A stretch of 64,000 nt of DNA. It comes from Utricularia gibba. Taxonomy: Eukaryota > Streptophyta > Magnoliopsida > Lamiales > Lentibulariaceae. Below are positions 40,201 through 44,757 of this stretch, piece by piece. The position numbers and the translations under genes are program-made. The notes beneath the pieces are model-generated. The model saw only the letters and a program-made list of their open reading frames with translations. It was not told the origin of the DNA and did no database searches. Numbering within the stretch: the first letter of the stretch is position 1; the number at the start of each line of letters is the position of its first letter. The stretch is from positions 1,178,001 through 1,242,000 of the forward strand of contig NEEC01000010.1 in assembly GCA_002189035.1 (NCBI GenBank). The letters are read 5' to 3'.

Positions 40201-41493
40201 AGTTGGACTAAACACGAGCAAGTTGTTTTGCATTGTTTGCAAGTCTCCTGAATCCTTCCCACAGGTAGTTTGTTGTTATCTTGGAGTAATTGTTTTCCTT
40301 TATGATAAAAAGTTAACCTCTATTGCTGGATTCTCAGACCACTCCAAAGCCTGTCCTCACGCTTCTGGACCTGTCATTTCCTGTTGCTTCATCCGATCTT
40401 GGTGCAGATAGCCTTGAGAATGAGTTTATGCTGAATAACATGCATCTCTCACATGTAAGCTCCATGAGCATTTAGGCATACTACACGTGCTATGTGATTG
40501 CGGTTTTAATATCATGTGTGTGTAGTACTAACGGGTAGCACTTTAATTACCCACTCCTGCATTTCTTCTACTGAATCATTACTTCCATCTCATTCAGCTT
40601 CAGAGAACCATAGAAGAAAGAGCAGCGTCTGGGCTTGATACCAGTTCACTTGATGATGATGCTTTCGACATAGAAACATCATTAGATAGATGCATCTTGA
40701 GGCTAATTGCATCCTGTTGCAATGGTAGGATTTCCTTTGGCAGGCAATGTTTAGTACATTTTTCTTATTAATGATGCTTTTTTGGTTTATCTACATCCTC
40801 CCTTGATCTTACCTCTTTTCTTGCTTTTCAAGGTGACAAGTTATTTCGAGCCACAGAACTTGTAAAACTTCTTTCCTTAGAGAAATCACTCAGAGGAGCC
40901 ATCAAACTTGCAACTTCATTGAAGCAACCAAATCTGGCCGAGCGGTTTAACGACATACTAGAGGTGAAATTTGAATTTTGAACATGCCTTACTATAATCT
41001 TTCGTAGTAGATTTCGCATTAGATCTGGAAAAATGAAACTGGGGGCGACTGGTAAGTAAGCAGGACATCTGTTTAGCGTTCCTACATACTCTAAAACATT
41101 TACTTGGAATTTTTGCAGGAAAGGTTGCTTGGTTCTAAGATTGGAAACTCTCCCCAAGGCATGAAGTCCAATTCCAGTGTCTCCACCCAGCCGGAAAAGT
41201 CTGTGTTTCCGAAGCCTTGCCCTCCGCAAGAAGCCAGCAACCCACCAAAACACACAGCTTCATCTTCTCTGATTGTTGCATCAGCAACGAATAAAGGAGA
41301 GAAGAATCAAACTCCTGCATCCAAAAACACAGCCATCAAGGCATCAAACGTCGATGGCCATAAAAATGGTGAACATAAGAAGATGACGAAGTTGGATCAA
41401 GTGAATCCGACCCGTCCCTGCAATCCGTTTGCAAAGCAGTCAAGCAATCAAGAGACTTCCTCTTTGTTCGATTCTCTTAAGAAGGCAAGATAA
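37242..41493 (+). CDS. CTF4: CTF4/WDHD1 (AND-1) homologue, replisome WD40 protein
   Basis: Twelve exons (37242-37521, 37621-38717, 39014-39190, 39298-39411, 39516-39620, 39703-39837, 39910-39965, 40162-40264, 40338-40454, 40598-40724, 40833-40963, 41119-41493) join in frame to 938 residues. The protein links the CMG helicase with DNA polymerase alpha in the nucleus. The Arabidopsis homologue EOL1 also binds Polycomb factors and helps pass on H3K27me3. An N-terminal WD40 propeller covers about residues 1-310 with repeats such as GVTALALSPDSTCLASGSIDHSVKLYKF. An acidic linker (DGDEEPNGSDDASDSNDD) and the SepB domain follow (about residues 430-800, including ESYWIVGLNTSKLFCIV). A basic, Ser-rich tail ends NPFAKQ..SLFDSLKKAR. 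It lacks an evident HMG box. A transposon lies 34 bases after the stop. Confidence 0.93.
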
Positions 41494-41517
41494 GACAACA
41501 GCTACGGGAGCAAGTTG

Positions 41518-42706
41518 TTCAGGTGACGAATTAATTGGCTATCTAGCCCTCTGCAAAAAACTTCTTTACTAAATGGCCCTATTTGGTAGACCTTAGTTAA
41601 ATGGCCCTACTTTATGTAAATAGTCCTATTTTTATCATAAATTAAAAAATAAAATAATTATTATTTACGAAAAATACAATTAATGTATATATAATTCTAT
41701 ATTAATTAATATTATGATTTTATATTTTTATTTCTACTCAAATTATATATATTTAATGATTTAATTTTAAAAATATAACATAAATATCAATATGAATATT
41801 TAGTAGTTATATTAAAATGTTTTCATAATAAATTAATATAAAAAAGACATGAAAATATTTATACAAAATTATTATAGTAAATGCTTTTAACTTAATTTAT
41901 TTAACCCAAAAATATGTTATGGTACGTCGTCTAATGATATAATAATACAAAATAATATTTCTCAATATTTTTTTAAAAAATTAAATGTGAAAAATCTATT
42001 AATCAATATTTTTATCTATTTAGTATAATATTCAATCTTATACCTAATTTATTAAGTTATTTGACTAATAGATTTTCATATTTAGTTTTTTTAAAAAAAC
42101 TAGAAATATTATTATGTATTAATTATATTATTAGATGATGTATCAAAACATATTTTTGGATTAAATAAATTCAATTGAAACATTTGATACAATAATTTTT
42201 TATAAATATTTCCATTCTTTTTGAAATACTAATGAAACTAAGAATACTAAAAAAACTAATATTATCATGAAATTACCTAAAATACAAAAAAAATTCATGA
42301 TAATTATACAAATTAATCAGTGAATTATAACAACAATCAATATCACAAAAAAGTTTCATTAGATTATGAAAACATTTTTAGGATAATCACAAAATAGTCA
42401 TATTGATACATATGTTATATTTTTACAATTAAATAATTAAATATATCTAATTTTAATAGAAATAAAAATATAAATCGAAATATTAATTATAAAAAATTAT
42501 ATATATACACATGTAATGTATATTTAATTTTATTTTATTATTTTTCGTAATAAAAATTATTTTATTCTTTATTTATGATAAAAGTAGGACTATTTACCTA
42601 ATACCTAAAAAAAGTAGGGCTATTTAGCTAAAGTCTACCAAATAGGACCATTTAGCCAAGAGTTTTTTTGCAGAGGGCTATATAGCCAATTCACCCTTCA
42701 GGTGAC
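41518..42706. mobile_element. Fold-back Mutator-like non-autonomous element with 10-bp target-site duplication
   Basis: The element proper spans 41528-42696 (1169 bp). It is flanked by the direct repeat TTCAGGTGAC at 41518-41527 and 42697-42706. The ends are long inverted repeats: left ATTGGCTATCTAGCCCTCTGC against right (reverse complement) ATTGGCTATATAGCCCTCTGC, continuing through CTATTTGGTAGAC and AATAGTCCTA words. Similarity between the two halves goes on for about 300 bp and, more loosely, through almost the whole element. TTTAACCCAAAAATATGTTATGG near 41900 pairs with sequence near 42150. No transposase is encoded. A 9-11-bp duplication with very long inverted ends fits a MULE-type MITE. 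Confidence 0.85.
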
Positions 42707-43244
42707 ACTTCTCCCTTGAAGTTTGAGGTACATAGTTGAAACATTACAGCTGTTGGGTTTTAGGAATACATGAGGACTACTCATTTGTTTGGTGTAATTG
42801 TTCAATGGATTGATACTTGTGAAAGAAAAGCTCATTATTTGTTCATATGCATCCCTCGAATGTCCCTGTGTTGAATCATCGACCGTATACATAATTAGAT
42901 CACCTCGAACGGTTTCATTCTGCTTGAGTCTAATTGTTGAGCGAAAAGTTTGCTCATAAACTCATTGTTTCACCAACGGTGGATTCTTTTTGGAGTATGC
43001 TTTTCTTTTTGTACAGAAACACAGGTACAAACATGCTCTTCTTTCCCTTTGTTTTCCTGCCTTCATTCATTAGAGTTTTTTGTTCTGTTCTGACGAAGAA
43101 CAAAAAGAAGGAAAGAACGAGCAAAGCCCCAGAAGACAAAATTCACATTAGCCAATGAATGCAACTCTCCTGTGAATGTGGAGTAAACACTGCATCTCCT
43201 TGAGTTAAGAAAACAGAAATCTTGCTCACAACTTCATATGAGAC
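42707..43244. other. Convergent 3' region between CTF4 and PCO
   Basis: This is presumably the displaced 3' untranslated sequence of CTF4 and the 3' region of PCO. No gene is seen. Confidence 0.4.
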
Positions 43245-44757
43245 TCACCTATCAATTCTTGGACCTGTGTATCTTCCTGAACGCATATACAGGTCGTCCG
43301 GGGTATCGATCTCCAAGAGCCAAGCATAATCCTCTTCATTCTGATCATGGATTACGTCCAACTCCATAGCTGAAATATTGATCATGACATGAGATGGCTC
43401 CTCAAGCACCACCACAACAAACTCTTCAGTGAGACTTGTGCAATATCATGAAGTGAAGCTACTTACGGATGCTGGAAACTGGATAATCACGGTAGTAAGA
43501 ACACTTCCTGCCTACATATTCGTTGTATGGAGGTGCAAGTATGTCGAGGACGGCACAAGGAGTAATGGCTGTAAAACAGTGCAGATTCCCTCCACTCCTT
43601 GGGTATAAAATGGACGTACATGGAGCTGACAGAACTTTATCCACGACCAGTTTCGCCAATCTCACTGTAATGGTAAGAGCATTTGATCAACTTCCATAAG
43701 ATCATAATTAACTTAGTTTAAATCAGTCAAGAAACACAGCGGAGGATTACAGAAACTAGTATAGATAAAGAAAATGTGAAAACCAGACCTGTAGAATGAC
43801 CAGCTCCAATTTTTCGAATGCGAGCAGGTTCTACCCAGTCATAAGCTTTCACATGCAATGAACCATACAAGACTTTGCTCAAGACAGTCATGCCAGGATG
43901 ATCATGAAGTGGATTACAGAGGAAGTAGGGAAGCTAAATATACACATCTGCACAAATCCACAGGCAACATAATACAAGACATTTGTAAGCATGCAGCGGA
44001 TAAGTCTAAAGAAAGAAAGTAAAAGACACCATCGCTAAACGCATTTGTTATCCTTCGTGAGTCAAGTTAACATTCTTGAAACACAGAAAAACAACTAGCT
44101 GAACAGCTATTGCAATCAAGGATGATTTCCAAACTCCAAGGTACTCTTTCTTACACAAGAACACACAGGTCCACTCTCAAGCCTCCACACAGCAGCACTC
44201 ATGGTAACCCAAACATTCAAACTCTCGATCTCATCCCTTAGAGAGGTTCAATACATGCATTTTAATTAGAGGGCTTGCAACGAAAACCAGTAAGAATATG
44301 AAAACATTACGTAAGACTGAAAAAGCATACCGTAAAATTTTGTCCCTCGTGTATATCAACATAGGTTATAGGCTGACTCCACCTATCAATCCTACTGAAC
44401 GACGTATTCTGGAAAGGACCATGGCCCCGATCATCCTCTTCACTCACAAAATCACAAAGGCCAACATCAGATGGACCAACTGAACCTGCAAAAAAAAAAA
44501 AAAAAAAAAAAAAAAAGCGCCCTAAATACCCACAAAACCAATTCACAGAAATCTCTCAAAAGCATCTAGTAGAATCAAAGGGCGTCAGAAAAACGCATAC
44601 CCAACGAAGTGCAGAGGTTCTGGATAGCCCGAGGAGGAGGTGGGGAAGGTGTTGACGGACTAAATGTTAGCTTGCAAAGGTCGTACAAGGCTTGAATAGA
44701 TGACGGCTTCCCTTTCTTCATCTGGGCCATTGAGAAAAGCCTTCGAAGTACGAACAT
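43245..44757 (-). CDS. PCO: Plant cysteine oxidase (thiol dioxygenase), one-base frame break
   Basis: Five minus-strand exons (44757-44601, 44485-44331, 43947-43789, 43664-43467, 43369-43245) encode about 264 residues. PCOs oxidise the N-terminal Cys of group VII ERF factors with oxygen and so feed the N-degron oxygen-sensing path. Visible parts are [12 protein letters not shown], the VSEEDDRG...[13 protein letters not shown] segment, and the cupin box with iron-ligand histidines in [26 protein letters not shown]. Then come [29 protein letters not shown] and the ending [10 protein letters not shown]...RYTGPRI. Exon 3 is 159 bases, one short. The reading up to FPTSSVI and the reading from PLHDHPG are in different frames; one more C (plus-strand G at 43910-43911) joins them. 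The start is the first in-frame ATG after an upstream stop. Confidence 0.9.

Follow-up and report, generated by a model that had tools for sequence, protein, structure and literature searches.

The locus studied here poses two questions: what the AT-rich, self-complementary sequence just downstream of the CTF4 stop codon is, and whether its presence is likely to matter to the CTF4 transcript. The window is the whole stretch of 64,000 nucleotides of Utricularia gibba DNA that was analysed (C304:1178001-1242000), and the genome searched comprises 100.09 Mb in 516 contigs. An initial annotation had described a fold-back Mutator-like element (MULE) with a 10-bp duplication in the 3' untranslated region (UTR) of CTF4. 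The element is almost certainly a non-autonomous fold-back MULE with long terminal inverted repeats (TIRs), because copies elsewhere in the genome have private 10-bp duplications, relatives carry MULE transposase sequence, and there is an empty site for one of the sister copies, L007. The same three lines of evidence strongly support the description first given.

The coordinates, length and perfect flanking repeats reported at the outset are exact (Table 1). The ends, described as reverse complements over roughly 300 bp, align over 293 bp at 90%, and an inner palindrome lies between them. With this palindrome in addition to the outer arms, the fold-back takes in most of the element and is not confined to its ends, and the predicted fold agrees with this arrangement. 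The palindrome recurs in sister copies, as matches at the same place on both strands, and the unpaired segment that breaks the symmetry is also found in L008, the long copy that has diverged furthest, as its near full-length reverse match indicates. The inverted-repeat score of the element is 326, compared with 39.6 +/- 5.6 and a maximum of 62 in 300 dinucleotide shuffles. As RNA, it is predicted to form a near full-length hairpin with a folding energy of -422 kcal/mol (-165 +/- 8 in shuffles, z about -33). The elements have the ends GAGTTAATTGG... and GGGT(G/C)AATTGG..., and a search for modular direct repeats of the kind found in FARE-like arms gave two to three imperfect units of 15-30 nt near each end. 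An Rfam scan of the window and a tRNA scan returned no match.

Table 1. Features at and around the insertion (positions in the window; a dot marks features without strand).
Feature	Position	Strand	Basis or remark
Open frame with the last CTF4/WDHD1-like exon	41104..41493	+	ORF list; stop TAA at 41491-41493
Very probable remnant of the original CTF4 3' UTR, 34 bases including the left target-site duplication	41494..41527	+	Between stop and element
Left target-site duplication, TTCAGGTGAC	41518..41527	+	10-bp exact match to 42697-42706
Element, almost certainly a non-autonomous fold-back MULE	41528..42696	.	1169 bp, 17% G+C, non-coding
Left terminal inverted repeat (outer arm)	41528..41829	+	About 90% complementary to 42363-42696, 293 aligned bp
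First sense AATAAA after the CTF4 stop, in the left arm; candidate poly(A) signal	41648..41653	+	Motif position
Inner palindrome, halves mutually complementary	41841..42222	.	Self-match 81% over ~389 bp
Segment of ~140 bp with no partner in the left half	42223..42362	.	Half-to-half alignment
Right terminal inverted repeat (outer arm)	42363..42696	-	Half-to-half alignment
Right target-site duplication, TTCAGGTGAC	42697..42706	+	Exact match to the left repeat
Last exon of a plant cysteine oxidase (PCO_ADO) gene, convergent neighbour	43245..43445	-	Pfam PF07847, three consecutive exons

The genome search for other copies that had been proposed as a check found seven further long copies, ~79-97% identical, as well as relatives that are partial or shorter at about 30 other places, counted for this analysis from the search results; among the family members are cousins of 0.7 kb. 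With the element and its flanks as query, the search gave family-type matches only. Kimura two-parameter (K2P) distances between the copy in the window and the other long copies range from 0.028 to 0.24, and the eight long copies as a set are 0.02-0.26 substitutions per site apart. For the 15 copies in which both ends are preserved, the left and right 10-bp flanks were checked against each other. They are exact duplications in eight and agree at nine of ten positions in four more, and the duplicated sequence differs from copy to copy. When left and right flanks were mismatched between copies, the best agreement in 210 pairs was 8/10.

Two larger relatives, 4.9-5.4 kb in length, combine related terminal repeats and the same type of duplication with decayed MULE-transposase genes. 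In L031 (C451:5083993-5089349, 5.36 kb), the ends are 70-74% identical to those of the element in the window over about 270 bp, the target-site duplication agrees at nine of ten positions, and the PF10551 MULE transposase domain is detected (1.3e-10) with stops in the genome match. L090 (C4:1460713-1465633, 4.92 kb) has related ends, inverted repeats of ~740 bp that are 79% identical, the exact 10-bp duplication GCTGCTTTGG, a PF10551 match inside it, and broken frames. An NCBIfam scan of the transposase fragment gave no match. The homologous ends and PF10551 matches of these two relatives assign the family to the MULE superfamily. As their ends are only ~70-74% identical to the element in the window, they are decayed cousins in sister subfamilies, and the CTF4 copy, which has no transposase itself, does not derive directly from either. 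As regards the autonomous partner also named in the proposed check, transposase-carrying relatives exist, but both are decayed, and no intact source element was found among the matches listed. In a further candidate, L091 (C413:3530500-3537500), the left end is related and PF10551 is matched, and no right end was found; L092 (C2:2341500-2347500) was set aside, having only AT-rich matches.

Empty sites were sought by searching the genome with the joined flanks of the eight long copies and of L034. For L007, the joined flanks align at 85% with C414:2115894-2116094, the alignment running unbroken across the junction with a single copy of the target, and there is a second, weaker match at C1:4077540. 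This pattern shows precise insertion, and does so for this sister copy only. The joined flanks of the CTF4 copy matched their own locus only, and the genome search revealed neither a CTF4 paralogue nor a duplicated 3' flank that could serve as an empty site, CTF4 and its 3' flank both being single-copy.

MULEs are defined by target-site duplications of 9-11 bp and have long TIRs, typically 100-500 bp (PMC3310237), ranges within which the exact 10-bp duplication and the aligned arms of the CTF4 copy both fall. The fold-back shape could also be taken to indicate another superfamily with TIRs, either hAT, which makes 8-bp duplications, or an animal-type Foldback element. However, duplications of 10 bp in 12 copies, together with the PF10551 remains in relatives with homologous ends, lead to the rejection of both and leave such an assignment very improbable. 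Missed-adapter reads do give palindromes, but neither an inverted duplication nor an artefact of this kind in the long-read assembly has any practical chance of being the explanation, as the arms differ by ~10% and both are refuted by the seven other places that carry the element between different flanks, mostly with a private 10-bp duplication.

Within the MULEs, the element is closest to the foldback type, since the outer arms and the inner palindrome together make up most of its length. MITEs are usually under about 600-800 bp and occur as many near-identical copies; this does not describe the element, which is 1169 bp long and has eight long copies, and the 0.7-kb cousins are closer to MITEs. 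Nor does it look like a Pack-MULE: the genome search with the element and its flanks as a single query showed no captured fragment of a host gene, and the element has 17% G+C and folds back through most of its length. The FARE foldback elements of Arabidopsis, in the terms in which they are outlined in PMC4486113, share its long palindromic ends, fold-back architecture and MULE affiliation. The likeness to them is one of described features, and the present element differs in being AT-rich and without coding sequence and in belonging to a different plant. The MuTAnT/AutoMuTAnT system of Medicago truncatula offers a similar combination of non-autonomous fold-back MULEs, a ~4.9-kb transposase-carrying relative and near-gene insertions (PMC4486113). 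MuTAnT elements, however, are mostly 200-300 bp long, with 9-bp duplications and TA-microsatellite targets (PMC4486113), whereas the U. gibba family is about 0.7-1.2 kb long, with 10-bp duplications and non-microsatellite targets in the copies examined. On the preferred reading, a MULE transposase from a related element would have recognised the ~300-bp terminal repeats in trans and inserted the element in the CTF4 3' UTR, duplicating 10 bp. Elements of this kind are common in plants, and the CTF4 copy adds to a known type; what the locus offers is a well-documented family of fold-back MULEs from a plant whose genome is very small, complete with relatives that carry a transposase and with an empty site.

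The host gene is the plant CTF4/AND-1 orthologue, as its upstream exons match the first WD40 region of WDHD1 (Pfam WD40_WDHD1_1st, 2.6e-55) and the middle region of Mcl1 (Mcl1_mid). Its coding region is not interrupted. The start of the element 34 bases after the stop codon, as first reported, was confirmed, and the AATAAA motif is absent from those 34 bases. Once the element and the duplication are subtracted, the stop codons of CTF4 and the convergent PCO gene are only ~570 bp apart; given so short an ancestral gap, the point of insertion was very probably part of the former CTF4 3' UTR. The original placement in the 3' UTR is therefore supported by position.

The absence of AATAAA between the stop codon and the element suggests that the CTF4 transcript now probably enters the element. 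Five sense-direction AATAAA motifs occur within it, the first 154 nt past the stop codon, and the flank between the element and the PCO gene has no AATAAA and only an AATGAA at 43154. From composition, 6.7 such motifs would be expected in the element; the count is not above chance at 17% G+C, so that the motifs are a by-product of AT-richness and not a designed terminator. The displaced polyadenylation site that the initial annotation had suggested for CTF4 is plausible. It may be that most transcripts are polyadenylated in the AT-rich left arm, giving a 3' UTR of normal length, and that a minority reads through and carries a long hairpin; this is the likeliest course, with a roughly even chance of being correct. 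Transcripts that end near the first AATAAA would contain part of the left arm only and no hairpin. The confidence attached above to the identity of the element covers that identity and does not extend to this proposal, which is drawn from motif position.

The element could also be functionally neutral, with the poly(A) site within or past it and CTF4 expression unchanged. The intact CTF4 coding region is in keeping with this, as is the frequency with which plant MULEs and MITEs insert close to genes, 3' sides included (PMC4486113, PMC12595863). Neutrality is a strong possibility that falls just short of being probable.

Less likely, if still worth entertaining, is that CTF4 read-through produces a long 3' UTR hairpin that is diced or translationally repressed. 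The predicted near full-length hairpin speaks in its favour, and two known systems provide models. In rice, an inverted-repeat DNA transposon, a Stowaway-like MITE (sMITE), lies in the 3' UTR of Ghd2 and represses translation through OsDCL3a (PMC5338036). That repression is demonstrated and DCL3a-dependent; for the CTF4 element such an effect is conjectural. In maize, an inverted derivative of MuDR known as Mu killer, and so an inverted MULE sequence adjoining a gene, has been proposed to make hairpin RNA and so siRNAs by read-through from that neighbouring gene (PMC3440606). Mu killer includes transposase sequence and acts by silencing MuDR, unlike the CTF4 element, which has no transposase sequence. 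Against a hairpin at CTF4 stand the five AATAAA motifs, the first of them within the left arm, as well as the structure of the arms, in which complementarity is 85-90% and the longest perfect stem measures 27 bp. A hairpin of several hundred base pairs would require transcripts that extend beyond the AATAAA motifs in the left arm.

The suggestion that such a hairpin might be a source of small RNAs against CTF4 was misleading. The element contains no CTF4 sequence, and siRNAs from the hairpin would thus target the element family. CTF4 could be reached only through its own 3' UTR, either by dicing of its mRNA in cis or by siRNAs from sister copies. The DCL3 route, moreover, is weakened by the report that U. 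gibba DCL3 is truncated, without the Dicer dimerisation region, and that the plant has few 24-nt siRNAs (PMC8333044). In the genome searched, RNase III domains occur as pairs at four loci, and the Dicer dimerisation domain was detected in three of them. The fourth dicer-like locus, C213:2761967-2762970, gave two RNase III matches and no Dicer-dimerisation match in the domain search, a domain content that fits the truncated DCL3 reported for this species, although a missing match is no proof that the domain is lacking. Because DCL3 is reported to be truncated, a DCL3-dependent route is a poor prediction for Utricularia gibba. A CTF4 mRNA with a long 3' UTR hairpin might, given the reported truncation of DCL3, be tolerated or cut only to 21/22-nt RNAs, although this combination is improbable.

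The CTF4 insertion is one specific, readily testable example of a transposable element within a 3' UTR. Were the hairpin transcribed, the locus would provide a test of hairpin 3' UTRs in a plant with compromised DCL3; if it is not, the insertion is an ordinary one. Should the hairpin reading prove true, a replication-fork gene would constitute a natural test of 3'-UTR hairpins without complete DCL3.

Several further observations concern the surroundings of the other long copies. In the right flanks of L002, L003 and L005, an open frame ends ~210-510 bp upstream of the copy; these frames encode a Bet v 1 family member, a product of 335 aa and a protein kinase. With the CTF4 copy included, four of the eight long copies are on the 3' side of genes, in what is a small, post-hoc sample. 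L002 (C321:1304563-1305952) is also inserted directly beside TIR sequence from a different subfamily within the family, and its flanks show no matching duplication (6/10); it is either a nested insertion or a product of recombination, and for want of a matching duplication it was left out as a source of an empty site. L006 (C2:4051991-4053337) lies near Copia-type (gag_pre-integrs) and hAT-like transposase remains, in a repeat-rich neighbourhood. The end of the long diverged copy L008 (C4:3353711-3354789) is ~290 bp away from the start of a downstream SPX-domain frame (PF03105), and the copy is a possible promoter insertion.
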